From Anadara kagoshimensis (taxonomy: Eukaryota > Mollusca > Bivalvia > Arcoida > Arcidae): DNA of 64,000 nt. The translations under genes and the position numbers were made by a program. How positions within the stretch are numbered: the first letter of the stretch is position 1; every line of letters begins with the position of its first letter. Positions 7,390 through 54,775 of this stretch are shown here, in pieces. The DNA is taken from the NCBI GenBank assembly GCA_021292105.1, contig CM037874.1, positions 25,904,583 to 25,968,582 of the forward strand. Reading direction: 5' to 3'. The notes beneath the pieces were generated by a model, which was not told where the DNA came from, made no database searches, and saw only the letters and a program-made list of their open reading frames with translations.

Positions 7390-7437
7390 AAACACTACTG
7401 GTGAGGAATTGTATTCCGAAACGACCGTCTAGTGTTT
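7390..7437 (+). ncRNA. Hammerhead ribozyme, type I, core-mutated copy
   Basis: Stem I arms AAACACTA and TAGTGTTT pair over 8 bp. Stem II (GGAAT-TGT-ATTCC), GAAA, the minimal stem III (AC-GACC-GT) and the cleavage-site C are all kept. The core reads CTGGTGA instead of CTGATGA, changing invariant A6 to G, so cleavage should be lost. About 90 bp upstream and 25 bp downstream are shared with the intact copy at 29842. Confidence 0.7.
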
Positions 7438-8618: not shown

Positions 8619-8740
8619 ACCATTTATCAGAAAATTCACACTGCAGTTCTTGCGTACCAAACTGACACACAGACAAACCATTTTAAAAATAGCAAAATCC
8701 GTGATCGATCAAGTCACTGCTAGTTAAATTACTCTTCAAA

Positions 8741-8919
8741 ATGACTAGGAAAGTTCGCGAAAAACTCCAGGATTTTTCGGGTTATACCTCTATTCATGGT
8801 ATAGGCAGGATTGGAGGTGTGAAATACTGGTTTATGAAAATATTCTGGACTTTGATTTTTATGGCTTCATTTGGGATGTGTATATTTCAAGTTTACAGAT
8901 TGGCGATTTTCTATATTTC
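8741..8919 (+). CDS. DEG/ENaC exon 1: N-terminus and TM1
   Basis: The start ATG is the first in frame and is followed by the basic MTRKVREKLQ segment, HG motif and TM1. The donor is GTACGT, ending in phase 2. The longer open frame beyond 8919 is intron read-through. Confidence 0.88.
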
Positions 8920-11900
8920 GTACGTATTTATTTATTTATTTTATTTTAAAATTTATGATCACTCATATATTTATTCAAACAATATTTTATATAATTTATA
9001 TTCGTCGTTTGCCTTTATTCATTTTTTATGTTATTTTTTTAAAGGAAATGCCCCTTTTAGGGGACGCAATTTCCATTCGAAAATACCTTGACATTATACT
9101 TTACGAGCAATATTAACATTTTTCAATAAAATCGAACTTTTAGGCATTATATAGCAATTCAGTATTGTAACAACCCCTAATGAAGTCCAACGTGTAATGA
9201 AGCCCAAATAGTAAGGCTCCAAACGAAAACTCTTTTTGGTATTAAAACATTAAGTTATTCTCAAAATTGAATGACTGCATTTTACTTCTCGTCTAAAGCC
9301 CCGATTTTTAACTTCATTAAACATGCATCGCAATTACCAATGCTTAATAAGGTCTGGACTTCCCTAGGCTTTGGGCTTCATTACCATTTGCTACATGTTT
9401 TGTATGGTCATCATGTAAAATAGTATTATGCCAAAAAGACAACAAAGTCAGATGAAAAAGAACGAAAAATTTAGCTGACTAAGAATAAATAGTATAAACA
9501 TCAAAACCAAACACAAAAAACAAAATAAAAACAAAACAACAAACTCAAAACAAATCTCTTATTAGATACAATTTGCGCTGTGATCTGTTAACGCTTCGAT
9601 TTAGATCACCTGGGCACCGAAATTCACTTTCTAAACGAAATTAGCAGGCAATGACGACGTTAAGTAGGTGTTATAAACAAACATACCAGTCCTTGTCTAA
9701 AAACCACAATCCCAAAGTAAAAACCTTGAGGCTGACAAATTTAGAGTAAACGCGTGAACTTCTACCAAGGAACTGAGACCGGGTGCTCTGGAAGGGTAAG
9801 TACAACCTGTTTACCTGGCTACTACGCATACCATGTATATAATCAGAATTGGTAACGGGAAGAAAATGGAACTATAGTACGTCAAATAAATCAAGGGTAA
9901 TTTGAATGCAGAAATCATACTTATCAATAATATTGTGAAGGCATTTAAAAACTGAGTGCCTTGATAATCTTAAGTCTGCAATATTCGCCAACAGAATTTA
10001 TATGCAGCTTGTTTTGTTGTATAAAGTTCCCGTACATTTGGTCGTTTTAGTCTTTTTACATCTATTACCAGTGTTCCTGTTACCACATTGGTGGAGACTG
10101 AAAATGATGTGATACAGTTTCCCGATATATCCATTTGTAATCAGTTTCCTTTGTTGTATAAAGTGCCCGTAAATGTGGTCTTTTTATATCTATTACTAGT
10201 GTTCCTGTTACCACATTGGTGGAGACTTAAAATGATGTGATACAGTTTCCCGATATATCCATTTGTAATCAGTTTCCTTTGTTGTATAAAGTGCCCGTAA
10301 ATGTGGTCTTTTTATATCTATTACTAGTGTTCCTGTTACCACATTGGTGGAGACTGAAAATGACGTGATACAGTTTCCCGATATATCCATTTGTAATCTT
10401 AATCCAATGAAGTACAAAGATGTCAAAAAACATCAGAGTTTATTCCAAGTCATTGAAGAAACTGCTAAAAGCTGGAACATAGATCTGTCATTGTTTGAAA
10501 AAAACGGGGTTTTTGTGGTGAGTAGAAAGATGGAAATCATTTGAAAAAAGAACTATGTAACAAAACCAAGTAAAACATGCCAGTTAAATATCAAAATATG
10601 ATATCGCAAAGGAAATTTGTGATGTTTTAGTAATGGGCTAATTTCTGGTACATCTAAACTGCCAAATTGTTTGTCAAGTACCGCATAGGTCCGAATCAAT
10701 CGGGCTGATTCATGTTTCAGGGTGTTTGTTCACCTTTTGAAGGCCAGGGTTTTTTCTCGGATACTCAACAACCGCGGAAATGACCGCTTCGGTGGGTCCA
10801 ATTGATTCGTCAGATTGTAGTATCAGATGTTGTTCGTCAGTTCGTCTACTGGTATTCTTCGAGCACTTCGGTTTCCTCCATTATCCCAGAAATGACCGCC
10901 TCGATAGAAGCAAAAGAAAAAGAGTTTTTGCACGCAAACGCCATTACTTCACCACTCAGCTTCACCGATTCAATCATTCAGCGGTTTACCGGTTCCTGTG
11001 CAAAGACCAGCCTCTAGAGTACAACTACATTGTTAAACACAAATATTTGGGGTGTATACTGTAACACAACTTTCGACAAATAATCTCGAAAGTGAATCGA
11101 CATGAATTTGTTTCCGAAAATGGTTTTATTTAGACCATTATTTAGATAAACTCCATATAGCGAATATTAATATCCGGGAATAAAAGACGGTATACAGTAT
11201 GCCCAGTGATAAAAGCCAGTCTTTAAGTACTCAATGTTTATTGGTCCAATGCATTAATCAATCGTTTTGTTATTAAATCCAATTTGTATTTTTTTCAGAA
11301 CCCGAACTACACTTACACCGACAAATGGGAGTATCACGGTAAGTATCTACCGGTCAATATCGCTTTTATACCGCCTTATCACTACCACAATATAGACCCG
11401 TCGAAAGTTTAACACTGAGCAAACGAAAAAAGGGGTCGAAACTAAGTTTTCGAGAGGCTGAGTTATGGATAGCAAGTTGTTGAAATCTTGCTTTAACATT
11501 CTGATTACAAAGGGCGGAAAAAGTTGATCTTATTTCTTTTTTGCATCACCTCTAAATACCGTCTGATTATAAAGGGCACTCAAATTGCGTTCTTATTATT
11601 TCCCATACCAATAATATACGAGTATAAGGCTTAAGTACGAATTGCTGTAAAATTCCATCTTATTTCTTATTCTACAACGAAGCAGGCTACTTGCAAATAA
11701 ATTGTTGACTCAGGGATATTGCAAGCCTAGGCTTATCAAGGCCCTTAAAAAGTTTTAAGGCGGTCATCACAGTATTTGTCTCTTCCAAAGTTTTTACTTT
11801 GCTTCTGGATCGTGATTCGGACATGAATAAGTATGTTTGTTTTTTATTATTTCTTATTTCTTATCGTCGTATCAATAATTGAAAAATACATATAACTTTG

Positions 11901-14900: not shown

Positions 14901-17900
14901 AAACAACCTGGCGTATTTAAGTTTATTCTGAAAACTTCGGTCTAATAAACTAGTGCTCGCTCCGTATGTGGGAGGTCGGGGTTCGAAGCCCAGCCGGGCC
15001 AGAATGTAAGCATTTTTTGTGACGATGGAGTTCGCCAGTGTACAAAGTGATCAACACTTTAAACCGTTTGTGCAAATGTTTGGAAAACGTTTACGTCGAA
15101 ACTTCCTGGAGTAACGTCATATTTATCGGAAAAGTAAATTAAGGGATTTTACCTTCAGTGGGGAAAATATATTTCACAGGAACGTTATGGGGTATCACGT
15201 GTAACACTGGCGAACTCCATTGAAAAATAACGTCTTCAAAGAATGTTCATGCTCTCTTATAACCGCAAACTGACATGTATATATGCATTTAAACAACAAT
15301 TCTAATCTCGAATTTGGTATATTTATTTTTAATTTTGTATATCAAATATCTAATTATAATATATGCTTTAGTGAATACTGTCCATGTGAATCAATTACAC
15401 ATTTTGTTGAAAAGTTTCACCGTAATATTGCTTAATTTTTAATGTTGCTCGTGGAATTTACCCTTTTAAAAAGTAATAGATAACATACGATTACATTTGT
15501 ATAAAAATGATTAAAAGATTATAGGTAATCATGGTGTTTTTTGGTTGTTAGAATGTATTCAAATATCATAAGATATGTCATTATGTCTCTATTTTTCCAT
15601 TTAATTGATACAAACTTATACCTTGCTATTACAAAAATAATTTTAAAAATATGTTTTATCAAACAGTGCAATTAATATGGGCGGTTGCATTTCAAATTGC
15701 TTCACTTTATCTCCGCCTCTCTGTCTCTCTCTTCGACACGTGACCTCCCACCAGAGAAAAGTGAGACAAAGTTCCCCATAAGGGTAAGTATTGTACGTCC
15801 TGTCTTACTGCTACAGATATTTTAGTGAAGTATTTTATAATTATGAAACATTCCGACACGTGAACTTCCACCAGAGAACAGTGAGACGGGGTTCTCCATA
15901 AGGGTAAGTATTGTACCTCCTGTCTTACTGCTACAGATATTTTAGTGAAGTATTTTATAATTTTACAACAATCCGACACGTCAACTTCCACCAGAGAAAA
16001 GTGAGACGAAGTTCCCCATAAGGGTAAGTATTGTACCTCCTGTCTTACTGCTACAGATATTTTAGTGAAGTATTTTATAATTATGAAACATTCCGACACG
16101 TCAACTTCCACCAGAGAAAAGTGAGACGGGGTTCTCCATAAGGTTAAGTATTGTACCTCCTGTCTTACTGCTACAGATATTTAGTGAAGTATTTTATAAT
16201 TTCACAACAATCCGACACGTGAACTTCCACCAGAGAAAAGTGAGACGGGGTTCTCCATAAGGGTAAGTATTGTACCTCCTGTCTTACTGCTACAGATATT
16301 TTAGTGAAGTATTTTATAATTTTACAACAATCCGACGCGTGAACTTCCACCAAAGAAAAGTGAGACGGGGTTCTCCAGAAGGGTAAGTATTGTACCTCCT
16401 GTCTTACTGCTACAGATATTTTAAGTGAAATATTTTATAATTATGAAACATTCCGACACGTGAACTTCCACCAGAGAAAAGTGAGACGGGGTTCTCCATA
16501 AGGGTAAGTATTGTACCTCCTGTCTTACTGCTACAGATATTTTAGTGAAGTATTTTATAATTTTACAAGAATCCGACGCGTGAACTTCCACCAGAGAAAA
16601 GTGAGACGAAGTTCCCCATAAGGGTAAGTATTGTACCTCCTGTCTTACTGCTACAGATATTTTAGTGAAGCATTTTATAATTATGAAACATTCCGACACG
16701 TCAACTTCCACCAGAGAAAAGTGAGACGGGGTTCTCCAGAAGGGTAAGTATTGTACCTCCTGTCTTACTGCTACAGATATTTTAGTGAAGTATTTTATAA
16801 TTTTACAAGAATCCGACGCGTGAACTTCCACCAGAGAAAAGTGAGACGAAGTTCCCCATAAGGGTAAGTATTGTACCTCCTGTCTTACTGCTACAAATAT
16901 TTTATAATTATGAAACATTCCGACACGTGAACTTCCTTCAGAGAAAAGTGAGACGGGGTTCTCCAGAAGGGTAAGTACCTCCTGTCCAGAAAACTACAGA
17001 TATTTTATAATCAATGAGACGTTTTATTTGTTGTTCATTGTTGTGTTATATTTTTTACGTTCAGGTTTGGAATTGCTTTTAAATGTCGACCAGAGTGAAT
17101 ATGTGCCATTTGTCACAGAATCAGCAGGTGTGAGAATTGCCATTCATACACCTGGTTCTAAACCTATATTCTCCTCGGGAACATCTTTACCAACTGGATT
17201 CGAGACCAATCTTGGAATAACTGTGGTGAGTAACATTAAAAAAGAGAGGTTCGAAAATAGTATTTGACGGACCTCATTCGAATTTAGAGCTGGAAATTAA
17301 AATTAAACTAGGCTTTAATGCATATCAAGTTGTAATCGATTAAAAAAAACATTGCTGTAAGAGAAATGGATGTTAACGGACCATATAATAAGGAAAGGCA
17401 GTGCAATGTTTTTCGGTGTTTCTCCAGGAAGTCATCGCCTCCATTCCGTCCCAAAGTTCCATGTTCCTTTTATTCCCAATTTCGATTAAACACGTGGTGG
17501 GTGTAGATAGCTAATCTGCAAGTGCTTACACTTCCGGAGCACCAGACCTTACTTCCATGGCGAAGTTCACGTGTTTAACGTAGTTTGTCACCCTTCAAAG
17601 TAATGTCTTGCAAAGCGATTTGTTAACTTCCGTTTTGTTCGGAAATCTGCTGGGGTACAGAAACGCACGCGACGTTTAGCGGTAAAAGGAAAGTAGCTCG
17701 TACATCGTGGACATCTATTTACGGTAAACAAACATGGTGACAACGTACGCAAGTCGCACAAAATGGGAAATGAAAGTTGAAAAGATCAAACTAGTACGGG
17801 TTTGAAAGGTAACAAAAACGTTATACAGGGTTTGGGTAAGTTACAAGGCCCTAAGTATGCCGTCAAAGAGGAATGCAGCCTTCTCTTGTGGCTAAAACAT

Positions 17901-20900
17901 GTATGAGTTAAACATTGTTATATTTCACCAAGGAAGTGAGACCGGGTGCTCCATATTCACGATCTACTTGGATACAAAGATATCATACTTATCAACAATA
18001 TTGTGATGACGACCATACAATAACTGATTATTACTGCTTTTAAATAACTCACAAGTATGAATTGTGATGAATGAAAAGGTGGATGTCAGATACATTTAAT
18101 TTTATTATCTTTGTATAATTTATATGATGTATGTTTCAGGTTGATCATCAACGCATGTCTGGCCAGAGTGAAAAGTGTGACGCCAACAATACATTCAGTG
18201 ATATACAAGTAAGAATTCATAGAACCCATTGTATACTTCACTGCCATCATTTGTATAGGCAAACAACATTGACCTGTCCGCTTAACACTTAATTTAAATA
18301 GTTATTGTGGACCAATACATTAATGTTGAGGGAAGACAAGTTTGTTTTCGCCTACATCATGGAAAGCATGCATTATTTATGTATTAAATGTGAATTCTAA
18401 CACAACAAATGTTATATATTCCGTCAGCGATATTCTGGTAGAGTGTTTATAAACACAGACGAGTATATTATACACCAATAGGTATTAATACCGTTTTGTC
18501 GTATAGGTATATTCATGCCTTCATATGATCATTTTATATATCCCTACCGTAGGTTATATACATTAAATAGAATCTTCCGTGTTTATAAACACTCTGCCAC
18601 AATATCGCTGACGGACTTTTTATAGAGGAATACTTCAATATGAATAGTTTTAATGAAAGATCAAGCCGACAGGTCTATATATGTTCTTGATCTAAAGTTA
18701 TTGGGTACGAGGGAGAGTTTTTGTTCAAATATTCCTCGAGGGTTATGCATATAACGATTATTTGTTTCCCATCACAGTAACATTTCAGACGAAATCTAAG
18801 CACCAGATCGAAATAATTATCTACAAATCGACAAATGATCATTATCATGCAAAAGACGACAAGCAAATTTACAGTATAAACAAACAACTTTTTTCAGGAT
18901 TTAATACCTTAAAAATAAACAAATATGAAAAATAAAATTGTTCCGGGCACCGGGGTTTACCATTGATTGACAGGCTAGGTAAGACCAGTGTCGATTTTAT
19001 CCTTTGTCTCAATGTGTTTTTGTGTGTAATAGATGTTTCCCAAGTTTGTGTCTTTGCCACGAATTAATGTTGTTATTACATTTCCAAAATAAGGAGTACA
19101 TTTTAGGTATTGATAGATTGACGTATTTGTTGGTGAATTTACCCAATTCAATGGGCAAGCACCATTGACCTGTCGTCACCTTAAAATAGATATTTATGAT
19201 GAATCAATGTGTTTATGTGCATTTATGTACAATCCAACCTGCCTCACAGGTCACCTCAATATAAAGGCCACCTGCTTATAAAGAGTAGTAGAATTGTGTC
19301 CCAATTGTTCTTTATTCATGTTATTTAAACCTGTATATAAATGTAACATGCCCATAGCCCGAGATTCCTCTGGCCCCAAAGATTTTTTTTTTATCAGTTT
19401 CGGGCCAGAGATCGGGCTTCATTATTTCACATAACGTGATGCCGTTGAAATCCTACGGCCAGGTAAGATTTAATTTGGCGGATATGTTCACTTTATTTTC
19501 ACGGGCATCGGGTAATGAACCAGTCAGATCGCTTACCTGAACCTTTTTTCACAAGAATCCATCGAAAAAACTACGTGGCAACTCCGTTTTATATCCATTC
19601 CAGCCATATAAATCCAACACTCGTGTAAAATCCTTCATCATCTCGCCATTTTTTATGTTATGATATTCAAATAACGCGAGATCTCGCGGGTTAAAGTCTC
19701 CCTTTTCTGATTGGCTAATGTCAATTTCATATTTTCCATATAAGGATGACCCACTTTCCATATAAGGAAGTGCCACTACAATCAATATCCCATGAAAACA
19801 AGTGTGTAGAGAAGACTCACAGCATCATTTAAACAATTATGACTTAAAAAAAACATTGATCCAATCGATTTATATTACATATACAATTGTATTAATGTTT
19901 AATTCATTTAATAAATCAACTTGCTCATTGATTTTAACATATATATAATAATTATATATTTTTATTTTTTTATTTTTATTTTTTACTTTTATACTAATCA
20001 AAATTAGTAACATTTCCACATTCTTACTTTTTCAAGCCAAATTTTAAATACTTTTATTAAATATGTTGTTTTTTTCATAGGTACATGTTTATTTCATCAA
20101 ACATTATAGCCTGGCCTGTTAACAAACAGGCTGGTTAAATAAACTCCTGTCCAAGTTTTGGCAGATTGCCATAGACACACTACATCAAATGAGTGTTATA
20201 AGATAACTTACTGGTCAGTCTTGCAAGTAGCTGGTCCAGTGGTAAATCTTAGAAAAATAATGGATTCAAAAGTATCTCTTGAAGTTGTTGAAAGAATCTA
20301 TACAGAGATTAAAATTTCTCATAATTTTCATTTTTCTTTGAAAAAAGAACAAGTTGAAATTATACAAAATATTATAAATGGAAAGGATGTGTTCTGCTTG
20401 TTGAAGACTGGGTTTGGCAAGAGTCTATGTTTTATGCTTCCACCCCTGTTACTGGACAAGGTATGTATCTTATAAATCATATTTCATAGATTTAATATGT
20501 AATGCATGTTTTAATTTTGTTATCTTGTTTGCTTCAAGTTAATCCTTTTCAAGTGTAAATTTCTTTTATTTATTACCTGTAGGCAATTGAGATTTTTTTC
20601 AAAAGGATTACTTTGTTGATTAATTTGTTGGTTCAATTAAAAAGGGTAATTTATTAGTTTTCGAAAAATATGGTATTTTCATGGGTGATCACCCAGGAAT
20701 GCAATCAGAAAGCCACACAATTTGATTTCTTTTGGGGAATATTGATTTATTAAATGAATAAAATATATTTTTTTAAATTTTATTTTACCCCAGATCCAAA
20801 AGTGATGTCAGGGTTGGGGGCCCTGAGTTCACCACTGTACAACATAAATACACACACATATATTATTATATTTCTCTTCAGCCTTCCCTTAGTATTTATA

Positions 20901-28200: not shown

Positions 28201-31200
28201 CCCTAACCCAGTCGGACCATGCTGTCTACGATTAAAGTATTGCCCATGCAAATTACCCACGAAATATTAACAAGTCAATTTGCATAAGAATAACTAACAG
28301 ACGTGTGTTAAAAATGATGTTAAATTAAATATAGTAAAGGAGAGGCCAAAAAGGGGGCAAGTCCAGTCATTACCCAAGATAGAAGAAAAGGTAGAAAGAT
28401 TAAAAATAGAAAAATGAGGACTAGAGTGGGGTAATGACATGACCCACGTTACAGAACGCATCTTCCCTTATGAATGTATTTATTTAATTTACTTAATTCA
28501 ATGATTTTAAGTAAAAGGTATTGCTTGCTAAGCACTGGTACATGCGAATTTACGGCATGCTGCAACGAAATATCTGCCTAGCAATAAAAATTACAGGTGA
28601 TACGTCCAGGTTAAACCTGTCGAACAGATCTTAATCTGATAATGACCTCAGGTGATATAAGGTGTACAAATAATGACCGCTCCCTTTCGTCGAGTTACGT
28701 TCTTTCGTAGTTTTTCTGATGTTCTCTAATAGGCGAAACAATAAACGAATTATACCTGTTTTTAAACTGAACCGATTTGTAATAACCCATGTTTAAATCT
28801 CAATCCCAAACCAAAATTAAAACTTGTAAGCAAACATTTTAACTTTCACTAAGGAAATGAGACCGGATGCTAAGGAAGGGTAACCACCTTCTGTTTAGCT
28901 AGTTACATCCGCCAAGTGTGTAATCGATTGAATTATGTGATTTCAGATATATCCAAGTTAATTCCAGACATAGAAATAACATATTAATCAACAATATTGT
29001 GATAACGGTGATAATACTTTTAAGGGTCCTGATAAGTCTAGGCTTACAATATTCCTAGGTCAACAATTTATTTAATTTGTGAATAGCCTGCTTCGATATA
29101 TAAAGTTTCCATAGTTGGAACAAGCTCAATCATAACGTATTAATTGTTAAACAAATGCACCATAAAGCAGGTTTATTGCTGCATAAACCTTTTTAGTTAT
29201 AGAACTACAGTTACAATTCTAAAAAATGACTCGCAATATATAAATATTTTTCCAACACAGTTTGAAAGGGTCAAAGTCATTAGTTATTCTAATCTTCCTA
29301 ATATATTGATGTCTTTTATTGTCAACATTTTTTGTCCTGTTTTGTTCCGTGTTTTTTATTATGTTGTATGTTTATGTGTTTCAGTCAAAATGTCTTGTAT
29401 CTATTTCAATAATTGACTACCCCTTTTAGAATTCAGTATTAAGATTTATTATTAAACACATTATTAAACAGGGTTGCATCTAGAGAATTGGATGGCGGGA
29501 TTCCTGCAAAAGCATACTTTGCACCTCTAAGTCAACCTTAGCTGCGGGAAAATACACTCAAAATTGTCGATTTCAAACCTAAATCCCTCACACCAGTCAC
29601 TATAGTGATTAATCAAATTAACGCCATATTGTTTTGCTTCATTTTTATAGAGAGGATTGTGCTAGTACGTATTTTCTACTCGTCCTTGACCAAACAAACT
29701 ATCAAAGAAGAAGCAGCATATACGGTAAGTTAATTTGAACTGATCATAATAACAGGCTTAGGTAAATTTGGTATATTATATTTTGGTCCTTTGGGAATCC
29801 TTTCAACATTTGAAAACAATTTTGGTTTCATAATTTGGTCCAAGCACTACTGATGAGGAATTGTATTCCGAAACGACCGTCTAGTGCTTTAAAATGAAAA
29901 CTGATATAATATGTAACAATAGTACAGTTTTCAGTTTTAATGCATGGTGGAAGAGCTAGACATGTAGGAGATGCTTACGCGTCCGGAGCACCCGGGCACT
30001 CGGTATCATTTCCGTATCGGAAATTGACGTGTTTTACTTTATTTGTAATTTTTAAACTTTGTATTTTGCCTTATTGATTGGTGTTTTGACAGACGGAGAC
30101 TTAAATATTTGTATTTTTTATATTAAAATTAGACTGAAAATCTGAACTTCTAGGTATAGATTACTTTTGATATTTTATCGAACATTAAAGTCAAAAGTTA
30201 TTATAGCCATTGATTTCAGTATGGAGATATGTCGTTAAATCAAGAACAAACATACCAATCCACATATGACACAATGTGATCAATTTATTCATGAGCTAAC
30301 AATCACGTGACTGTGATTCAGTTGAAGCCAGTAACGCAAATTATCCATTTTTTAAATTTCCCAGGCCTAAAATTATGAAGTCTTAACATTAGAGGAACAT
30401 TGTGTTACGAATTTGCAGAAAAGGTAGATTTTAAATAAAATTTCCATGCAATTGTCTTATAATGAGAACTAAATTAAAACACGCTTCGGATTTTTTTTTT
30501 TTTTTTTTTGAAAAGATCTGTTTTCTAATTAAGCAAATTTATGTTGTTACCACCCTAACAATGAACAATGTCAAGCGGTGTACAATCAAATTATGTTTCA
30601 GCGAATTTTATCCTACTTGTCGAGAAAACATTAGCTATTTATCACCACTCACCTATGTAAATTTCTTTTTATTTTCAATCATATTGTTGAAATGACCCCT
30701 AAGCAAATTATCAAACAATGATTTTGACATGTAAATGTCCAAATCGCTTACCCAAAGCAAAGTAAAAAAAAAAACTCTTAAAAACTGACAAATAAGTCAC
30801 TTGAAGTTTAACTAGCGATTGGCTGCTAGGGTGGGTAAGTACCTTCTGTTTAGCTAACTACACCCGCCACATGTGTACTCTAAATCGGAAAGGAAAGGAA
30901 CTATGGGACGTCAAATATGACCGGGGTAATTTTTTTAATCACAGATATCATATTTGTCAACAATTTAGTGATGACGGCCATAAAGCTTTTTGTGGGCCTT
31001 AAAATACTCAGGCTTGCAATATCCTTTTCGCAACCATTTTTTTGTATGTATAAAGCTCCGGGAGTAGAAACAAGTTTTACCATAGCGTATAAATAATTAA
31101 ACAAATACACCATAAGCAGAAACAAGTATATTGCTGCTTAGAAAAGTTGACGATAGAAAAATGGAAGTCATAACGTTTATTATAAAGCTTCAAATACAGC

Positions 31201-32002
31201 CTTCTGTACATGAATTTCAGTTGTAAATGTCTTTCACCTAATTGCTATAATAGCCAAATAATGCTAAAGTTGTACTTAAACGTACTTAAAGATGGTTATT
31301 AAATGAATTTGTTTTCTTTCAAGACCTCATTTCAATATGTATTGTAAGAATATAACCAGATTACGACATGCATAATATTTAAAATAAAGTGTTGTAAAAT
31401 CATTGATTTTTATATCATCAAATCACAAAAGAATAGAATAAAATCTTCTCTACTTTGTACAACGAAGTAGGCTGCTTGCAAATAAATTGTTGACTCAGGG
31501 ATATTGCAAGCCTAGGCTTATCAAGGCCCTCAAAAAGTTTTGTGGCCGTCATCACAGTATTGTTGATAAGTTTAATTCCTTCCTGTCCAGGATTGCCCTG
31601 GATATATTTGAATTCTCATAGTTCCATGTTCTTCTCACACAATTTTGATTACACACGTGGCGGGTGTAGCTAGCTAAACAGGAGGTGCTTACCCTTCCGG
31701 AGCACCCGGCCTCACTTCCCTTGTGGAAGTTCACGTGTATAACCTAACTTGTCAGTTCCAAAGTTGTTACTTTGCTTCTGGATAGTGATTCCGATATAGA
31801 TTAGTATGTTTGTTTTTTATTACAACATATTTTGCAGGATGAAAATTTCGTGAGCGACATTGGAGGACAACTCGGACTATGGGCTGGTTTATCAGTATTG
31901 AGTATGGTTGAAATCGTTGAGCTATTGGTGTTTATAGGTGTAGCATTATGCTCCAGAAACAAAATAAACAGCAAAGCCGACGAAAAAGATTTTAGTTCAT
32001 AA
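8741..32002 (+). CDS. DEG/ENaC-superfamily sodium channel subunit, 12 exons, 465 aa
   Basis: Joining 8741-8919, 10328-10517, 11299-11338, 12371-12506, 13336-13433, 17065-17225, 18140-18208, 22429-22537, 23539-23608, 24009-24119, 29655-29724 and 31838-32002 gives one frame of 1398 bases. Every junction has GT-AG signals and matching phase. The protein has a cytosolic TSIHGIGRI segment with the HG gating motif (res. 19-20), TM1 (about 34-57), FPDISICNLNP (76-86), YGRCYKLN (192-199), a cysteine-rich region (C281, C293, C297, C306, C308 onward), RWPS (363-366), DIGGQLGLW (418-426), the G-L-S selectivity filter (428-430) and TM2 (about 428-452), with a short cytosolic tail. The family forms trimeric, amiloride-sensitive, peptide-, acid- or mechanically gated Na+ channels at the plasma membrane. 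The ligand cannot be read from sequence; FaNaC- and ASIC-like subfamilies are both possible. Length is at the short end of the family. Confidence 0.9.
9675..10045 (+). repeat. Family A repeat, near full length
   Basis: Runs from AAACAAACATACC through CCGGGTGCTCTGGAAGGGTA and ATCATACTTATCAATAATAT to the GTTGTATAAAG end. It lies in channel intron 1 and its right end abuts the triplicated acceptor units. Confidence 0.8.
10072..10327 (+). repeat. Two extra tandem copies of the exon 2 acceptor region (128-bp units)
   Basis: The segment spanning the exon 2 3' splice site and its first ~65 bases is present three times with exact 128-bp spacing (acceptors just before 10072, 10200 and 10328). Only the third copy continues into the complete exon with a donor. 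Copy 2 has an in-frame TAA, and 128 is not a multiple of 3, so use of either upstream acceptor shifts frame. The repeat unit also covers 55-60 bases upstream of the first acceptor. Confidence 0.9.
10328..10517 (+). CDS. DEG/ENaC exon 2: start of ectodomain
   Basis: The acceptor is ATTACTAG and the donor GTGAGT. It encodes VPVTTLVETENDVIQ, then FPDISICNLNP, a hallmark of the segment after TM1. Copy 3 of the triplicated acceptor is chosen because it alone gives an unbroken frame to the donor. Confidence 0.9.
11299..11338 (+). CDS. DEG/ENaC exon 3 (40-base exon)
   Basis: TTTTTTTCAG acceptor and GTAAGT donor bound NPNYTYTDKWEYH. The exon is unusually short but keeps phase (0 in, 1 out). Confidence 0.8.
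11393..11490. mobile_element. Family B MITE, left half
   Basis: CGTCGAAAGTTTAACACTGAG and the following purine-rich stretch match the left part of family B; no right terminus is present. Confidence 0.6.
11655..11850 (-). repeat. Family A repeat, internally deleted
   Basis: Has the far end (ACAACGAAGCAGGCTACTTG, ATTGCAAGCCTAGGCTTATC) joined directly to the near end (TTTTTACTTTGCTTCTGGAT), with the middle third missing. Confidence 0.8.
12371..12506 (+). CDS. DEG/ENaC exon 4
   Basis: Acceptor TTTTTGCAG, donor GTATGT. It encodes NDMLTLAKRVFRLRLGDFDD and the following part of the finger region, ending FFGIELHE. Phase 1 in, 2 out. Confidence 0.85.
12748..12965 (-). mobile_element. tRNA-derived SINE (V-SINE-like)
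   Basis: On the minus strand a tRNA-like head (GCGAGTGGTCTAAACTG, GGTTGGAATCT) is followed by the central block GGTACTCCGGTTTCC, widespread in molluscan SINEs, and an end with GGACGTAAAAT. It is in channel intron 4. Fragments with a similar central block occur near 22870 and 41760. Confidence 0.6.
12990..13194. mobile_element. Family G MITE, copy 1
   Basis: Left end ATGGAGTTCGCCGCTGTACC and a related inverted right end enclose blocks such as AACGTCGTTTTTACCGGAAAA that form a further imperfect palindrome. The second copy is at 15025. Confidence 0.65.
13336..13433 (+). CDS. DEG/ENaC exon 5
   Basis: Acceptor TATTGCAG, donor GTAAGT. It contains EYGRCYKLN, matching the conserved G-x-C-Y-x-x-N of the palm region. 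Phase 2 in, 1 out. Confidence 0.88.
13631..14160. repeat. Diverged duplicate of the IL-17 upstream region
   Basis: Aligns by eye in the same orientation with 53505-53945: GCATTGATATTCACGCC / ACATTGATATTTACGCC, TTTTCTCTCTGTAGAATAA / TTTTCTCTGTGTAGGAGAA, and ordered blocks between them. It lies in channel intron 5. Confidence 0.7.
13764..13879. repeat. 29-bp tandem repeat, 4 units
   Basis: CTTTCAAAGCTTCACATTTC plus ACATCATCT is repeated four times, the last unit with two changes. It is an expansion of a block present once, in altered form, in the duplicate near 53600. Confidence 0.9.
14647..14682. repeat. (AAT)n microsatellite
   Basis: About 36 bases of TAA/AAT repeats followed by T-rich DNA. 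Confidence 0.85.
14950..15022 (+). mobile_element. tRNA-derived SINE head fragment
   Basis: GCTCGCTCCGTATGTGGGAG and the B-box-like GGGTTCGAAGCCC match the head of the SINE at 25897. The remainder is missing, and a family G MITE starts at 15025. Confidence 0.6.
15025..15220. mobile_element. Family G MITE, copy 2
   Basis: ATGGAGTTCGCCAGTGTAC at the left and GTAACACTGGCGAACTCCAT at the right are terminal inverted repeats; the interior matches copy 1 at several blocks. Confidence 0.75.
15733..17009 (+). repeat. 120-bp satellite array, about 10.5 units
   Basis: Units of 119-120 bp repeat with GGGTAAGTATTGTACCTCCT recurring near 15783, 15902, 16022, 16261, 16381, 16502, 16622, 16742 and 16862 (16141 is a GGTTAAGT variant). 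Neighbouring units often alternate ATTATGAAACATT and ATTTTACAA at one spot, suggesting a 240-bp higher-order period. The core (ACGTGAACTTCCACCAGAG, AGTGAGAC, AGGGTAAGTA) is the middle of family A. It lies in channel intron 5. Confidence 0.92.
17065..17225 (+). CDS. DEG/ENaC exon 6
   Basis: Acceptor ACGTTCAG, donor GTGAGT. It encodes GLELLLNVDQSEYVPF, then AGVRIAIHTPGSKP and an LPTGFETNLGITV end. This is the family's conserved G-L-x-L-x-L ... aG-V-x-I-H segment. The acceptor lies only about 55 bases after a 120-bp satellite array. Confidence 0.9.
17435..17612 (-). repeat. Family A repeat fragment
   Basis: Contains AACACGTGGTGGGTGTAG, CTTCCGGAGCACCAG and GAAGTTCACGTGTTTAACG in reversed order, as expected of a minus-strand copy. 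Confidence 0.78.
17926..18035 (+). repeat. Family A repeat, rearranged
   Basis: AAGTGAGACCGGGTGCTCC is followed after a deletion by ATCATACTTATCAACAATAT and TGTGATGACG. Confidence 0.75.
18140..18208 (+). CDS. DEG/ENaC exon 7
   Basis: Acceptor ATGTTTCAG, donor GTAAGA. It encodes 23 whole codons including SEKCDANNTF with one ectodomain cysteine. Phase 0 at both ends. Confidence 0.8.
18254..18655. mobile_element. Family C MITE interrupted by another MITE
   Basis: GGCAAACAACATTGACCTG at the left and a partial inverted match (AGATCAAGCCGACAGGTC) at the right bound the element. A second palindromic element occupies 18421-18617. A more complete family C copy is at 39577-39804. Confidence 0.55.
18421..18617. 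mobile_element. Family D MITE nested in family C
   Basis: CCGTCAGCGATATTCTGGTA with AGTGTTTATAAACAC at the left is mirrored at the right by GTGTTTATAAACACTCTGCC and ATATCGCTGACGG, giving inverted repeats of about 38 bp. Confidence 0.75.
20260..20461 (+). pseudogene. RecQ-like SF2 helicase N-terminal exon
   Basis: From ATG at 20260 the frame reads MDSKVSLEVVERIYTEIKIS, then FSLKKEQVEIIQNIINGKDV and CLLKTGFGKSLCFMLPP, up to a donor GTATGT. The Q-motif-like F-x-x-x-Q and the Walker A motif TGFGKS followed by LCF-x-LP match RecQ-family helicases. No further helicase exons are visible, so the copy is a partial gene carried by the foldback element. The earlier in-frame stretch (20158) lacks an ATG. 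Confidence 0.6.
20901..20928. repeat. (CA)n microsatellite
   Basis: About 14 CA units followed by a CCA/CCCA-rich tract. Confidence 0.85.
22429..22537 (+). CDS. DEG/ENaC exon 8: cysteine-rich domain
   Basis: Acceptor GATTTCAG, donor GTAAGT. It encodes ACIEECIGRRIVSSCNCAH, the family's C-x3-C-x8-C-x-C pattern. Intron 7 before it is 4.2 kb and holds a nested foldback element. Confidence 0.9.
23070..23340 (-). mobile_element. tRNA-derived SINE, minus orientation
   Basis: The minus strand has a B-box-like GTGGGTTTAACCCTGGCC head and ends with GACGTAAACCCTATTCAATC. The GACGTAAAC end is shared with other V-SINE-like elements. It is in channel intron 8; its ORF is not coding. Confidence 0.55.
23539..23608 (+). 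CDS. DEG/ENaC exon 9: cysteine-rich domain
   Basis: Acceptor AATTTCAG, donor GTAAGA. It encodes LSCIDTAMLSIPTACSACK followed by VPC. Phase 1 in, 2 out. Confidence 0.88.
24009..24119 (+). CDS. DEG/ENaC exon 10: WPS motif
   Basis: Acceptor ACTTTAAG, donor GTTTGT. It reads ERTYKQSLSMTRWPSGNY, matching the conserved C-x-x-x-x-Y-x-x-x-x-S ... WPS stretch near the end of the ectodomain. Phase 2 at both ends. Confidence 0.88.
24700..24865. repeat. CGTTCG-rich minisatellite
   Basis: Variants of AACAATGGTTCGTTCGT and ACGAACGTATCTAACAA recur several times. The block lies near a GAACGTAACTC(A/G)ACGAAAG motif (24525) that is also found inverted near 28700. Confidence 0.65.
24971..25335. repeat. Degenerate (GAT)n/(ATG)n/(ATC)n microsatellite region
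   Basis: Trinucleotide repeats in both polarities, longest at 25191-25215 (GAT) and 25255-25287 (ATC). Poly-Met and poly-Ser frames here are repeat artefacts. Confidence 0.9.
25897..26237 (+). mobile_element. tRNA-derived SINE, full-length candidate
   Basis: The head has an A box (TAGCGCAGTGGTAGAG, near 25905) and a B box (GGTTGGAACCCC, near 25949) at pol III spacing. The body follows, and the end is ACTAGGACGTTAAACGCC. It lies in channel intron 10. The head is tRNA-like, but the continuing body shows it is a SINE and not a tRNA gene. Confidence 0.7.
26722..26911 (+). CDS. Possible alternative terminal exon of the DEG/ENaC gene
   Basis: A good acceptor (polypyrimidine tract then CCTCAG) is followed by a frame matching exon 10 phase: RNQTAYIVFKDVSFANCEF and on to a stop at 26909-26911. 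The first residues resemble the segment normally encoded by exon 11. Its use would give a subunit ending before TM2. A phase match by chance has odds of one in three, so this is tentative. Confidence 0.3.
27156..28453 (-). mobile_element. Probable solo LTR
   Basis: Termini TGTAAC...GTTACA bound 1.3 kb without coding frames. On the minus strand GGCTATAAATAGGGAG (28106-28121) followed by a CT-rich start region has the look of an LTR promoter with U3 to the right. No clear 5-bp target duplication was seen (AACAC and GAACG), which lowers confidence. It fills much of channel intron 10. Confidence 0.45.
28785..29115 (+). repeat. Family A repeat, near full length
   Basis: Matches the family over its whole length: CAATCCCAAACC, AAATGAGACCGGATGCTAAGG, CCTTCTGTTTAGCTAG, TCAACAATATTGTGATAACG, AAGTCTAGGCTTACAATATT. 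Confidence 0.82.
29655..29724 (+). CDS. DEG/ENaC exon 11
   Basis: Only the AG at 29653-29654 (…ATAGAG) fits the exon 10 phase; the nearer AGs do not. It reads RIVLVRIFYSSLTKQTIKEE and then AAYT, the classic strand leading to TM2. Donor GTAAGT. Confidence 0.87.
29842..29889 (+). ncRNA. Hammerhead ribozyme, type I, intact
   Basis: Stem I arms AAGCACTA (29842-29849) and TAGTGCTT (29882-29889) pair perfectly over 8 bp. Between them are CTGATGA (29850-29856), stem II GGAAT-TGT-ATTCC (29857-29869), GAAA (29870-29873), the rest of a two-pair stem III (A-C, GACC loop, G-T; 29873-29880) and C at 29881 as cleavage site. Every invariant core base is present. Type I hammerheads with so short a stem III are known from animal retrozymes, satellite RNAs and Penelope-like elements, and usually act as dimers. 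It lies sense in channel intron 11. The surrounding ~170 bp (about 29755-29925) recurs elsewhere in the window, so it is a dispersed element. Confidence 0.85.
29950..30075 (-). repeat. Family A repeat fragment
   Basis: Contains TCCGGAGCACCCGGGCACTC and AAATTGACGTGTTTTACTTT in minus orientation. Confidence 0.75.
30725..31090 (+). repeat. Family A repeat, near full length
   Basis: AAATGTCCAAATCGC through GGAACTATGGGACGTCAAAT and TGATGACGGCCATAAAGC. It faces the oppositely oriented full copy at 31443, so the intron transcript could form a long hairpin. Confidence 0.82.
31443..31828 (-). repeat. Family A repeat, full-length reference copy
   Basis: About 386 bp, reading on the minus strand from AAACAAACATACTAATC to the TTGTACAAAGTAG end. 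It includes CTCCGGAAGGGTAAGCACC and CTAGCTACACCCGCCACGTG. No ORF, no clear terminal inverted repeats. Its right edge lies about ten bases from the 3' splice site of the last channel exon. Confidence 0.85.
31838..32002 (+). CDS. DEG/ENaC exon 12: selectivity filter, TM2, C-terminus
   Basis: Acceptor ATTTTGCAG. It encodes DENFVSDIGGQLGLWAGLSV and the hydrophobic TM2 followed by a basic-acidic tail ending KDFSS and TAA. The last ~18 bases of intron are all that separate the exon from a family A repeat. Confidence 0.92.
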   Translation, partial: DENFVSDIGGQLGLWAGLSVLSMVEIVELLVFIGVALCSRNKINSKADEKDFSS

Positions 32003-40900: not shown

Positions 40901-43900
40901 AGACTTTTTGGGTTTAACAATTAAATCATGCATGTGTTTACATCAACACTGAATCTTGTTGTTTATTAATTCATAGGAATTTAAACCACTGAATTTATTG
41001 AATCTATCTTTCTACATTGATACATCCAACAATATCACATTTTCACATTTTCATCGTAACACATTAAAAGTGCAGTTTGTCATTCTTTATCCATCAGTAA
41101 AAACAAAAAAACAATGATTTGGAGGAAACAGGAGCTTTTCTGCATTGTACGTTTCATTTCGCTCTTTATATTTTTAATATTTACAAAAAAATATTTTGAA
41201 CATTTTGCCAGTTTTTTACACCTTAGATTCAACAACTACTGATCGATTGTTTTTTCTTACAACAGGTCTGACGACTCCGATACGAGTGATTCCAATATAG
41301 AATATGCAGGAAAGAGGTAATACAGATATGTAGAAATAATTATATCGGAGAGAATAAGTATGAGTTTGGATATGAGGACAGTTTGACTTTTTAAAGTCAA
41401 TTGCTATAATAGGTCTAGAGATAATATTGTAATAGAAAGTTTATAATGGTTGATAGTCAATGATTAAATAGCACCATACGATTTATTTTCACCAGATTAA
41501 TTGATATTTTCATCGAGTTAATTCATTGTGCACATAGGTTTATAGCATTGTAAGCAGAACATTAGTAACATTGTAATCATCTAGACACTTATAATCTTGT
41601 ATAATCGCCAGTATAAGATAACACCACAAGCTTTGCAATTATTCCTCCTGAAATATATACAGCCTACATGCTAGAGATAAATGCTTCAAGAAGAATGAGT
41701 GCGATGGTGTTGAGTGATGTATTTTACTTATACCGAGGTATTCAGTTCTGGGATCGTTAGGAAGACCGTGATACCCAGAGAAAAGCACCGAGTTTATGAA
41801 ATATTATATACAAGTACAATCACATGAAATTAATACAAACACTGTGTGCTAATGTTAAATCAATTATTTTTTATATAATAAAAGGGTTAAAATCTTTATT
41901 TTCATATTTCAGTATAAATGTAATAAGTCATGACCTTGGAGAGAGGATAAACTTGCAAATACCTTCACAGTTTTCACAAAAAATTATAAATATAAAAGCA
42001 AAACAACTAGATGTTATATCGAGGAATGAAGTCATTGGGAATATGTGTGTTGGTAATGAAGAAAAATATTGTTCAGACATATATGAACTGTTTGATTGCA
42101 TGAGGAAGACGAAAAAACTTGAATAACGGGAAAGTAGATGTCATTTCCGTTCCAAAACAGTTCCTTAAACACACCAAGATCAGTATACATATCGGCAGTT
42201 TAGAAAACATCGAATGTTACACTTTCTATGCATATGTTTATACAAAGGCAAAATGGGTGAAAATCGGTGGAGAAATGTCGCAAGTACTTTATCAGCAGGT
42301 AATTTAATCCGTTGCATTTTAAGAAATATTTTATTTTTGTTTATGTCATTGTCTATATAAATTCCCAAAATACATTTTTGAATCCACCAAAAGTACCTTA
42401 CTGCTGCATAACACTTGTCGTGAGTTTATCTTAATTCTTGTTAATATGCATGTATGCGTGTTTCTAATGTCATTCGTGGGTTGTATTGGCAATTAACAAA
42501 CACGCGCATGTCAGTTCGAAATAATTTATTTTACATAAATACAGAATATTGTTCATGAGTACATGTAGAAAAAAAGTTGGATCTTAAATCTTATAAAACG
42601 CCAGCTAGAAAAAATTTGTAGTTCAGCCAGTCGATTTATTATGTGTTCTACCAATCGCATTGTTTTCGTTTTTACGCGTTTATATTGCATATTATACAAG
42701 TTATAGTGTTACAGCAGTAGACGGTCGTTTCAATATACTATTTCAGTTTTTGTTTATAAGCATTTATCTCAGGTATTTCCTGTCTTTTGAAATATGATTA
42801 GTATTGTATATATTTTTTCTGTTCTTTTCACAGAACTCGAACGTTGTAACCTTTCATGCGAATACACTCAGCAAATTCTTTATCACATATTCGCCAAAAG
42901 TTGAAGAAGCAGTATTAAATCCCCATGAGGAGTATGAGTATGTATCCTGTCACGATTCAAGAACACGAGTTGTCTTCCCTCAGAAATGTGTAGAAAAGTC
43001 AGAAAAAGTCTACTTCATGGTAATTTTTTTTTACTTTGATAAGTACATAATAATATGAACACATTAAATTACATATTATACCAGTTTTAATTTTACAGCA
43101 CTAGGCGGGCGTTTTGAACTACATTTAAAACATATTAAAATAATATTTAGAATAGCCGTTCTTGATTAGACTTTGGGAGCAAAACATTTTATAAATTTAT
43201 CAAAACAAGATCGACCTATGTCCGAATCACAACTCCAAAGCAAATCAAAAACATTTAAAACTGACAAATTTATTTTAAAACATGAATCTCTACCAGGCAA
43301 GCAAGGCCGGGTGCTTTGAAAGGGTAAGTAACTCGTGTTAAGTCAGCTACAGCTGTCACGTGTGGAATGAAAGGAACATTAAAATACACCCAGGGTAATT
43401 TTAGACACAGAGAGATCATGCTAATTACATATTAAACCAGTTTAAACTAGACGGTCGTTTACTACACAATACTTTTGTGATGAAGCATAAAACACTTTGA
43501 GGACCTTGATAAGCCTAGGCTTATGAAACAATAACAGATACATGTATATCTGGGTTTTTTTTTTTTGTTTTTTGTTTGTTTTTGTTTCAAGATACGTTGT
43601 AATTGTGCTATATTATAATAAGTATAAATATATGTGTTAGATGTTGTTAGCAATATACGTTCACCGTCTTCTTTATCATTTTTTTACAATTTAAACACAT
43701 TGTATTAGGTAATTCCAGGTGATGTTCAGGGGATGTGTTGGAGACGAGAAAACAACCCAAAAGATTATAACGTTAGAGCCATTTCACATTGCTTATACGT
43801 AAAGCATGATGTTAGAAGATTCCTAAAGCAAGTCTCTTTATCTTTACCAATAAACGAGGAGCAGGATAACTGCGATCTTGTATTCTTTCGGAAGAAAGGG

Positions 43901-46900
43901 GATTCTATAGAGGTTATAGACTTGTCCAAAAATGACACAATATGCAAAAACGGAGACTGTGGTTCTATAGATGTGTCCGGATTTAGCAGGTAATAAATAG
44001 TTTTTCCTACATGGACCAATTCTGTGTTTTTTACCTTATGATGAAAGAAATGAAAACGTTTCGAAGGACTAGAACCTTACACGAACCGGTTTATCTAGAA
44101 ATAACATGTTATTATATCAATTAAAATCTTCGAATTACACAGTTTTCTTGCCGATCACGAAGAAAATACAGTAATACCTCGATTCATTGCCACCATTTGT
44201 TCAGTCAAAGTTTGGCGTTATAAAGGGGTTTGGCGATAAATCGGGGGAATCGAATAAAGAAAAACATAAACAAAATGGATTTTGGGACTTCAAAATATTG
44301 TGGCGATAAGCGAGGTTGCAAAGTAATCGAGGGATATTATCACGAGGTTTTACTGTAAATGCATTTTTGGATTGAATATGTGACCAAGAAACAAGTGAAA
44401 ACTGGAAACAATAACAATAAAAGTAAATGCATCCATACTGTAAAAAAACGATCTTTAGAAAAGTTAGTAGTCAATTAAACATTAATACCTATCACATTTC
44501 TACCATCCTGAATCGGCTTATAACACGCCACTATTTATTTATTTATATTTGAGATGAAAATCATTGGAGAAATAGAGAAAAAATGATTAAAAATTGAGTG
44601 CACCGTAGTAACAATTTTTTTATTGTAATTTTTCAAATATTATAATTCCGCCATACGCCTGTCGACAGTAACCAGTCGATTCATATTCAAATATCTCTCG
44701 TTTTAACACAAAATATTTTTGGGGATTTTTTAAACTCAAGAAAACAACAAACAATCAAGGTAGTATATTACCAGGTGTCATGAAACCATTCTATACGAAC
44801 ACCTGCCAATAGTGTCTGTTTAAAGGCATAACTGATAAACAAACTTTTCATTAAGGTGGACCAATAATAATCTTAAATTGTTGATAGGTGTCATTCGAGT
44901 GTCAATTTCACTCCTTCAAATGAATTTATGGAGAAATATTTAAATAATTTTCAGCTTGTTGAGTAAATAAGTAATGTAGGTAAATAGTATTCAGTGAGGC
45001 TTTGTGACGTCTTGGCATGGGATCCAAAAAGCGATCTTTTCGAATTGGATTAAAGGGAGGTGTATTAGAAAATCGCCGTATTTCCCTTATTTAAGCATGG
45101 ATTGTTATGAAATTTTCGCATCGAAACAGGTACTCTTGAAAGTCTAATACTAACGGAGGACACAAAGTCCAACCGTTCAGCTTAATTATTTTGCAATTTT
45201 TACCATTTGATGGTTTGTAACATGTTTCATGACACATCAGTATTTCACATTTAAAATTTAATTTGCCAGCATAAATGTTTGTGTAATATTAAAATTTTAT
45301 TCATTTTATGGATTAATTAATGTTTAAAGTTTATAATTTTGTTTATTGGCTTTTAACCGAGTTTTTCTGATATTATATTGTTTAAGTATACATTTATCAG
45401 GTTACAAGCTGCTCGTATTAAATCTGGATCAGCGTCACACGTATCTAACCTAGAGGTTGAATTAAGCATGGGATTAAAGAAAATATGTGCGATTCTGCTG
45501 TTCATGAAGAAAGACAAAGACAACTTTTTAACACTTTGGATTGAAATAACAACGAAAGAAAATGGACCTAAAGTTGCAGAAAAAAGAAAATCAATGGGAT
45601 TTTGTGAAGTTCATGATTGTCGATCTGGTGATATTTTCTTGAAAGATGCGTCACGAATACGTATTGACATAAAAGGATGTATAAAACCACTTAAGGGTTT
45701 TCCAAAAGCATTTTTCTTTCTGACGTTTCTTACACTATCTGAAGATAACCATTTATCTTTCCCAGTACAGCTTTATCAGCAACTATCGGATCATCCGTAT
45801 GCAATCATTTCTTTCACAGAAAGTGTTAAATCAAAAACTGTATTACATGTTGCAAGTTTTGTTCCTGCACCAAAATCTGTTCCAAAACTGAATTTGCCAC
45901 GCAAAGATAATCATATTAATACAAGGCCAAAACAAATTCAATCAAGTCGGATTGCGCGATCTCAGACCTTTGGTGGTTTCAATACGGAGACATTTTCACA
46001 AGATAAGACAAACGGTAAGTAGTATTTTTAATTATGTGATATAACTAATAAACTGTTCGGAAATAATGCTGATATTGCCACAACGTATATCGTACAGAAC
46101 AGACTACTGAAATAAAAGAATTGATAGTTTACGGTAATATCATCTTTCTAAGATTTTGTAAGCACAATAAAGTTAAAATATATCCACTGTAGCAATTTAC
46201 AAAAATTATGACATTTTCTTTTCTACTTGGACAATTTGGACTTTTGAGATTTTTAAATCGTAAAGGTAACCTCTATGTCTCGTATGCGAATTGCATGCTT
46301 TTAAATAGTAGTTGGTGCGATTCTGTTATTTTTTTGAAAAAGGATATGTATTAAGGTGCTTTCTAAATGCGTTCTGTATGATTTGATATCAAAACCTTAC
46401 TTTGTTTGTTCTAAATATGAATATTGTATATGTTTCCATCGGAAATGGATAAGTATGTTTGTTTTTGATATGTTGTATGCAATACATTTTTTCAATCCCT
46501 TAAAAAGTATAGTTTCACAACTTTGTTTCAAGCACTACTGATGAACAATCGTATACCAAAGCGGTTGCCTAGTGCTAAAAGAATTGTACAATGGTACAAT
46601 ATGTAATACGAATGTATAGTACATAGTACTATTTATATTAAAATTCGATTATTTATACCTGAGATTCTAGTAACTATTTTGTTTTGCACGATATATGAAT
46701 TTATACCACTATGAACAGTATTTGTATGCAGTTTAGTGTTTCCTATTATGAAACATTATTGTAATCTTCAAAGGAAAATTTTATTTCCCTTTTCCCCTAC
46801 GAAAAGTTTTTGTTTATTGTCGTCTTATGTACATTCATAAATATCTTACTTGGATATTGCCATGGATATATTTGACAACCCATAGTTCCATGTTACTACC

Positions 46901-53945: not shown

Positions 53946-54775
53946 TATTTATGAAAACGTCTGTCTCTAAACATTTAAGACGTACAAGTGTCATTTCTCA
54001 TTATTTGTGTTCATATGGTATACGGATTTCAAATGTTTGAAATTATATCGATTGTTTAAATTCTCACAGATAAAGATGATTTTAAGTGCTCTTGAGATGT
54101 AAATACGACAGAGATAAATAACACTACAGGAAGCAAAATTTGATCCGTCAATAAAACGAAAGTCTTTGTAAAATAGGAATTAATTGGGCATTTTGATCAG
54201 TAGTTTTATACTATAATCCTATTGTTTTTCAATATATCAAAACCATGTTTTAATTATGCGGCACTAACAGGCCGTTACGGGGTAAAATTCCACCTCAATA
54301 GCGTTCGTATCAAAATTGTGGAAAACTGAATATTTTAAGGTGTTGAAATTAGGAAAATAGAACGACCAAATGTATTTTACCAAATTTACAAAAGGCAATA
54401 GTTATTACTTTAAAACATTCAGTAGCATTGTTTTTTATGAATTTCAAATTTTAAAAAGCAGATATTTTTATGAACAATGTGTATTTGACAATACTATGTA
54501 TTATCCCTGGGTAACGAATATCTTCGGAGATGCTAAAGCAACTTAAACGTAGTGGTATGTTAAAGATCTAACAAAAGTATTAAAAATCATTGCAATGACA
54601 CCTGTTCTGCATATATAAGTGTGGTCGAGACAACTCGGGTAATTGATTATTCAACTGAACCAATTTTATTTTTGAATTTGATGATATAGTTGGTTAATTT
54701 GGTTAAATATATGTTGGTCCTTTGGATATGTTTTCAACCTCTTGAAATAAAATGTGGCGTCAGTATTTTGGTCCA

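Follow-up and report, generated by a model that had tools for sequence, protein, structure and literature searches.

A probable 5'-truncated retrozyme copy with a minimal type I hammerhead motif in the last intron of a DEG/ENaC gene of Anadara kagoshimensis

In the present study, we analyzed a stretch of 64,000 nucleotides from the bivalve Anadara kagoshimensis, which is referred to as the window. Three open reading frames (ORFs) in the window, at 8705-9091 (E 3.8e-6), 16914-17267 (E 2e-8), and 31805-31999 (E 2.9e-9), matched PF00858, and the best solved relative of the last of these was the FMRFamide-gated channel FaNaC1. Joining the donor (gtaagt) at 29725 with the acceptor (ttgcag) that ends at 31837 places DENFVSDIGGQLGLW directly after ...IKEEAAYT with the reading frame kept, and the segment past the acceptor is the last coding exon because a stop codon (TAA) lies at 32000-32002. 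The 28-residue piece upstream of the donor showed no Pfam match of its own, and, thus, the exon before the donor rests on the splice sites and the frame. The first-pass annotation of this DNA had placed a hammerhead ribozyme in the sense orientation in the last intron of a DEG/ENaC gene, and this placement holds: the motif begins at the 118th base of the intron, on the sense strand, with the PF00858 match downstream.

29725-31837, forward strand: host intron (gtaagt ... ttgcag), 2113 nt, phase 0, from the sequence and the reading frame
31838-32002, forward strand: final coding exon of the DEG/ENaC gene, with the second membrane segment, from the PF00858 match of the ORF at 31805-31999

Other parts of the window are recorded here as separate observations. 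A 128-bp stretch is present in 2.7 repeats (97%) at 10050-10398, the reading of which we take to resemble a DEG/ENaC exon directly past the first membrane segment; an exon may have been multiplied in tandem. A 120-bp repeat occupies 15734-16977 in 10.5 copies, and its start resembles, by eye, the flank right after a retrozyme copy at another locus (L091). The ORF at 48782-49114 matched a death domain (E 9.4e-7), and that at 20143-20475 matched a part of a DEAD-box helicase (E 7.4e-7).

The core of a type I hammerhead consists of CUGAUGA, GAAA, and UH, in this order, within three helices, with the open end in helix I. Direct reading of 29842-29889 on the forward strand gives AAGCACTA CTGATGA GGAAT TGT ATTCC GAAA CGACCG TC TAGTGCTT, in which all of the core positions are present and in order.

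29842-29889, forward strand: type I hammerhead ribozyme, from the sequence and covariance model R1
29842-29849 with 29882-29889, forward strand: stem I, eight pairs, from the sequence
29850-29856, forward strand: core CTGATGA, from the sequence
29857-29861 with 29865-29869, forward strand: stem II, five pairs, TGT loop, from the sequence
29870-29873, forward strand: GAAA, from the sequence
between GAAA and GTC, forward strand: stem III, two pairs (A-U, C-G), GACC loop, from the sequence
29879-29881, forward strand: GTC, in which C17 is 29881, with cleavage predicted after 29881, from the sequence

An intact type I hammerhead with a minimal stem III and a predicted cleavage position after 29881 had been claimed from the letters of the sequence, and both points were borne out. 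The pattern CTGATGA-N6..20-GAAACGACC matched once in the window and in none of 100 dinucleotide shuffles, and, on sequence grounds, the motif at 29842-29889 is not a random match. An inverted repeat at 29888-29940 (16 nt, 88% complementary), which is composed of the tail of the repeat copy described below and its flank, could rival the ribozyme fold.

A covariance model of the hammerhead, R1, was built from 35 hand-picked, cleanly alignable phage type I motifs out of a pool of 105 distinct motifs preselected for pairing, which were drawn from phage hammerheads collected from viral contigs (29 loci, then at least 120 stretches). The covariance-model match that had been called for was obtained with R1, the best match of which in the window was 29844-29887 (40.0 bits, E 6.6e-12); with filters off, the window hammerhead reached E 5.2e-12 over 7000-57000, these E-values being rough according to the tool. 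A further match of 31.8 bits lay at 7392-7435. The Rfam search proposed in the first-pass annotation was negative: no hammerhead family was matched by Rfam 15 in the window at the gathering score, in the whole window and 261 bp at E<=10, or in 16 loci with further copies of the element at E<=10. Regarding controls, six of the 29 viral loci with CTGATGAGTC-N6-GACGAAACGC yielded no hammerhead at the gathering score, and two of the 29, which were searched at E<=10, reached RF00163 but scored below the cut-off of 34 (28.4 and 24.3 bits). Since textbook hammerheads of phages also fall under the cut-off, the negative Rfam result carries little weight, and Rfam was rejected as an arbiter because the control loci showed its model to be insensitive. 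For this retrozyme family, minimal hammerheads were missed by the Rfam type I model and found by the phage-built model. Separately, in each of seven viral contigs (L129, L131, L146, L167, L171, L180, and L201), there are two or three type I hammerheads that differ from one another and have differing stems.

The hammerhead had also been described as part of an intact element of approximately 170 bp with several other copies in the window. The copies stood, at eight matches to the repeat unit including the one under study, whereas the element itself did not: what lies in the intron is a 160-bp fragment of a 338-bp unit, truncated at its 5' end, which comprises unit positions 174-335 only and hence is not a complete unit. 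The ribozyme region is spanned by five of the eight matches, and its core is intact in 29757-29916 only.

29757-29916, forward strand: solitary, 5'-truncated copy of 160 bp, unit 174-335, 89.5% identity to the unit at L024
7303-7464, forward strand: copy with a broken hammerhead core (CTGGTGA), unit 174-335, 82.7%, includes the R1 match at 7392-7435
46512-46607, forward strand: decayed copy with a broken hammerhead, unit 243-336
55370-55462, forward strand: decayed copy with a broken hammerhead, unit 244-338
54694-54793, forward strand: partial copy, unit 180-279, with a weak R1 match (16 bits) at 54777-54806
54242-54454, reverse strand: decayed copy with a broken hammerhead, unit 119-324
43067-43126, reverse strand: 3' fragment without the first part of the ribozyme, unit 278-337
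42684-42742, reverse strand: 3' fragment without the first part of the ribozyme, unit 278-336

The exact core CTGATGA-N6..20-GAAACGACCGTC occurs at least 942 times (478 + 464) in the 1.115-Gb genome (36 contigs), and a reversed control pattern occurred 0 times. The genome-wide search for tandem copies that had been suggested found arrays: four ribozyme-bearing units lie head-to-tail at L024 with a period of approximately 338 bp and 96-99% identity, the first unit being partial, and further head-to-tail arrays are present at L016 (two units), L089, L070, and other loci. Among 132 non-overlapping matches, 14 exceed one unit in length. The unit is non-coding by inspection, has a G+C content of 34.6% (32.4% for the whole window), and is repeated in the arrays with nothing between units. 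The suggestion of a retrozyme-like element was thereby supported, in that 338-bp units with a type I hammerhead are arranged in tandem.

The ends of the copies were located with a query of three joined units, so that copies may run past the unit end, in a sample of 132 non-overlapping matches from the window and 89 loci, for which six loci overlapping later ones were dropped and a few near-duplicates were kept. The loci were picked for an intact GACC core, and copies starting past the cut lie outside the sample; the predicted cleavage falls after unit position 300, where the fetching pattern also stops, so ends at the cut were fetchable. The 3' ends fell at unit positions 330-338 or 1-3 in 51 of the 65 matches with at least 85% identity (88 of all 132), and this preferred end lies 35-38 nt past the cleavage site; none of the 132 ended at 295-305, the position of the cleavage site. 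The remaining 14 of the 65 well-kept matches end elsewhere, seven of them at 312-325, partly in a subfamily with a different tail. The 5' starts are spread across nearly the whole unit, and the lengths of the 65 matches range from 0.12 to 3.0 units, while the L024 array with its partial first unit spans approximately 3.6. The tail of the retrozyme reads CTGGTATAATATGTAAT; the terminal motif (A/G)TATAAT(A/T)(T/C)GTAA was found in 36 of the 132 matches; in 29 of 33 distinct flanks, the next base is T (at this place, TT stands in the unit itself), beyond which the DNA is A+T-rich (72% vs 68% in the loci). Target-site duplications are visible in some copies (TTAGTAT at L001, TTTTACTAA at L015), and the longest word shared by the two flanks had a mean length of 5.05 in 56 of 75 insertions, compared with 4.62 in shuffles (sd 0.12, maximum of 200 shuffles 4.91); at the window copy, no target-site duplication was evident.

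Because of the hammerhead, the tandem 338-bp units, the preferred 3' ends with variable 5' ends, and the high copy number, we consider it highly probable that this site holds a decaying copy, truncated at its 5' end, of a metazoan non-LTR retrozyme with a 338-nt non-coding unit and one type I hammerhead. Features by which such retrozymes are recognized were found in the family, namely a non-coding unit within approximately 150-450 bp, a type I hammerhead, head-to-tail tandem arrangement, and low G+C, while target-site duplications of more than 4 bp were clear in L001 and L015 and showed a weak overall excess over shuffles. As judged from its sequence, the family belongs to a kind that is already known from mussels and corals, and the window copy is a relic. 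Parts of the unit may resemble the mussel element; two mussel-like patterns found nothing in the viral contigs. In Mytilus galloprovincialis, the retrozyme has been described with approximately 5000 hammerheads and repeats of approximately 350-390 bp (PMC7229834), and a comparison by published architecture shows that both elements have a type I hammerhead, a small A+T-rich non-coding unit, a tandem arrangement, many copies, and a short helix III, the unit of the present family being 338 bp. Published retrozyme circles have been described as highly self-paired, whereas no unusual structure was found in the whole 338-nt unit (z -1.05).

In the cycle published for retrozymes, the element is transcribed, the RNA is cleaved and ligated into a circle, and a borrowed enzyme reverse-transcribes it, which is followed by insertion (PMC7229834; PMC7761336). 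By analogy with the mussel, coral, and axolotl retrozymes, tandem copies of the present family would be transcribed, the ribozymes would cut the RNA into monomers, some of them after pairing with a neighbor through a palindromic stem III, and a host ligase would close the monomers into circles. A borrowed reverse transcriptase (RT) would then begin at a single preferred position, which lies 35-38 nt beyond the cleavage site, and new sites would receive anything between part of a unit and several units; the window copy would be a by-product of this cycle. The cleavage site is crossed by those copies that extend from the core as far as the 3' end, and, at that point, their template would thus have been either a closed circle or a multimer that was not cut. 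For one Penelope-like element (PLE), reverse transcription has been shown to begin at internal sites, where its genomic insertions end (PMC11167929), and most of the retrozyme copies stop at a short, fixed distance beyond the hammerhead in a manner that resembles this internal start. We tentatively suggest, as a possibility that we regard as rather doubtful, that the retrozyme is copied in a PLE-like manner from a fixed internal start 35-38 nt past the hammerhead cut, with a closed circle (or a multimer that is still uncut) as the template, around which copying would proceed for part of a turn or for as many as several turns. If true, a PLE-like fixed internal start would identify the hitherto missing enzyme of animal retrozymes. 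PLEs have been named as a strong candidate partner of these elements (PMC7229834), and a 2020 review describes retrozyme repeats as lacking a conserved motif that points to a partner (PMC7761336); here, a PLE is a hypothetical partner. A fixed 3' end of animal retrozymes is not described in the available excerpts of four sources (PMC7229834; PMC7761336; PMC11167929; PMC6155905) and may be in print. The locus itself is an ordinary relic and the family is more informative: its copies favor one 3' end beyond the ribozyme, do not end at the cut, and have open-ended 5' ends, all of which bears on which RT mobilizes animal retrozymes and where it starts.

A closer relationship with PLEs, in which the site would be a piece of the pLTR of an autonomous PLE and not of a non-autonomous retrozyme, was also considered. 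PLEs and Terminons share the minimal type I hammerhead with a very short stem III, such hammerheads being known in PLE terminal repeats (PMC7761336; PMC6155905), and the present genome has PLEs with nearly identical copies. At L091, an open PLE-like frame of 714 aa lies 489 bp upstream of a retrozyme unit and matched RVT_1 (E 4.1e-15) and, below the cut-off of 22.6 bits, GIY-YIG (E 9e-4, 19.9 bits); this PLE had 68 matches in the genome, with 62 of 2921 candidates scored, three of which, including the query's own, are near full length at 97-100%. In 25 further 3' flanks of this PLE (6 + 19), for which the reference end stops at 247, 11 ended at 245-247, six at 217-222, and eight elsewhere, the true end at 245-247 being judged by eye from differing flanks. 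The two main ends are approximately 28 nt apart, like published PLE tails, and no retrozyme sequence was present at the PLE ends in those flanks. A motif scan of seven PLE 3' flanks and the start region of this one PLE family revealed no convincing hammerhead besides those of adjacent retrozyme copies. Hence, most copies of the single PLE family that was looked at terminate 217-247 bp past the stop, in sequence that belongs to the PLE, with a 3' end unrelated to that of the retrozyme, and the retrozyme arrays are 338-bp non-coding units with nothing between them, without the protein-coding part (RT and GIY-YIG) of a PLE. An origin from a PLE pLTR is, therefore, regarded as improbable.

A direct sequence link between the retrozyme and the PLE, for which the proximity at L091 and a unit abutting a PLE end on C9 had been taken as candidates, was rejected on account of the unrelated PLE ends in the 25 flanks. 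The arrangement on C9 is a nested insertion because a PLE pair lies within an older retrozyme with a duplication of approximately 12 bp, AAGGTATACTCC. At L251 and L253 (C9:57.26 Mb), opposed PLE ends, one short and one long, flank the insertion in the old retrozyme, and L261 and L272, too, seem to be retrozymes into which a PLE was inserted. A second RT element, with IGIPMGTNCAPLLADLF and YIDDV motifs, partly broken frames, and a common 3' endpoint, was observed at L092-L095; it lies inside a retrozyme unit in L092 and adjoins unit position 104 in L093. A derivation of the retrozyme from a PLE that lost its frame by deletion, as L092 had suggested, was rejected since positions 180 and 179 of the unit adjoin the insert on its two sides, which is what a nested insertion would give.

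With respect to constraint on the ribozyme, compensatory stem changes among the copies had been expected in the first-pass annotation. Among 127 covering rows, 89 were ungapped and 38 were dropped due to indels or partial cover, which left 62 distinct ungapped copies; in these, eight changes on both sides that preserved pairing were counted against a shuffle mean of 4.8, and 101 of 1000 shuffles gave eight or more. Broken pairs numbered 109, against 111 in shuffles, and only 19 of the 62 copies, which were mostly selected by core, retain five pairs of stem I together with a complete stem II. Covariation as proof of function was thus abandoned as being not above chance, which fits neutral decay after insertion, and the conservation of stems relative to flanks was used instead. 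In 52 core-selected copies, divergence was 7.4% in stem I and 8.1% in stem II against 11.5% in the flank (below the flank in 41 and 42 of the 52, respectively), and in 22 other copies, which exclude an intact GACC by definition, it was 4.0 and 3.7% against 11.9% (19 and 18 of the 22); subfamily differences may inflate the flank values. The better preservation of the stems than of the flanks fits a constrained source lineage with decaying offspring.

The loop of stem III differs among copies. In 41 rows outside the fetching pattern, 12 had an intact GAAAC-GGCC-GTC, five had GACC, four had GGTT or GGTC, and 20 had other loops, and the units with GGCC include some of those at L016, L024, and L089. 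With GGCC in place of GACC, ACGGCCGU becomes self-complementary. For two GGCC ribozymes, the minimum obtained with RNAcofold (-36.7 kcal/mol) was a double hammerhead in which stem III has eight pairs, whereas the minimum for two window ribozymes (-30.6) was another fold without a double hammerhead; in single-molecule folding, the hammerhead was not the energy minimum for either form, the energies of which omit core contacts. Tandem GGCC units are accordingly predicted by folding to pair as dimers through a palindromic stem III, a palindrome that is not general in the family and that is broken by GACC in the solitary window copy. The satellite hammerheads of the newt and axolotl share the weak helix III, and these amphibian ribozymes are weak alone and stronger as dimers (PMC7229834; PMC6155905); they differ from the present ones in host group and sequence, and stem III has two pairs here and one in HHR_Amex1 (PMC7229834), while the GGCC units here have the palindromic loop and the predicted dimeric fold.

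Cleavage in the monomeric state is reported for invertebrate hammerheads, which have two pairs and a tetraloop, with rates of approximately 0.8 per min in a coral and approximately 0.1 per min in a mussel (PMC7229834; PMC7761336). By analogy, the window ribozyme may still cleave to some degree, and cutting of the channel pre-mRNA is physically possible because published two-pair ribozymes cleave as monomers, although more weakly. The ribozyme might have been taken over by the host in order to cut the DEG/ENaC pre-mRNA near the 5' splice site and tune splicing or isoform choice, in the manner of amniote intronic hammerheads. Its sense orientation at the 118th base of the last intron, its intact core and stems, the monomeric cleavage described for invertebrate retrozyme hammerheads (PMC7229834; PMC7761336), and the published cases of conserved intronic hammerheads (PMC6155905) are in line with such a takeover. 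The amniote hammerheads in RECK, CTCL, and DTNB, which are likewise intronic, are conserved across species (PMC6155905), whereas the window copy is truncated, approximately 10% diverged, one of at least 942 exact cores of an abundant repeat, solitary, and devoid of the dimer-forming palindrome. A takeover by the host is, therefore, considered very unlikely, and a specific role in the DEG/ENaC gene is not indicated. A non-mobile satellite or MITE-like DNA transposon with a chance hammerhead-like motif and no ribozyme function, for which the many broken copies and covariation not beyond chance might speak, is hardly credible given the preferred 3' end and variable 5' ends that favor reverse transcription, the absence of terminal inverted repeats in the ends inspected by eye, the lower divergence of stems than of flanks, and the co-occurrence of all hammerhead parts (E 6.6e-12).

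Apart from the retrozyme family that is considered to have given rise to the window copy, another lineage was observed at L033 (C2:37716800-37721500), where five cores recur every 660-800 bp or so on the minus strand in a longer tandem repeat with its own hammerhead, and three of these five cores carry A instead of the C that closes stem II.
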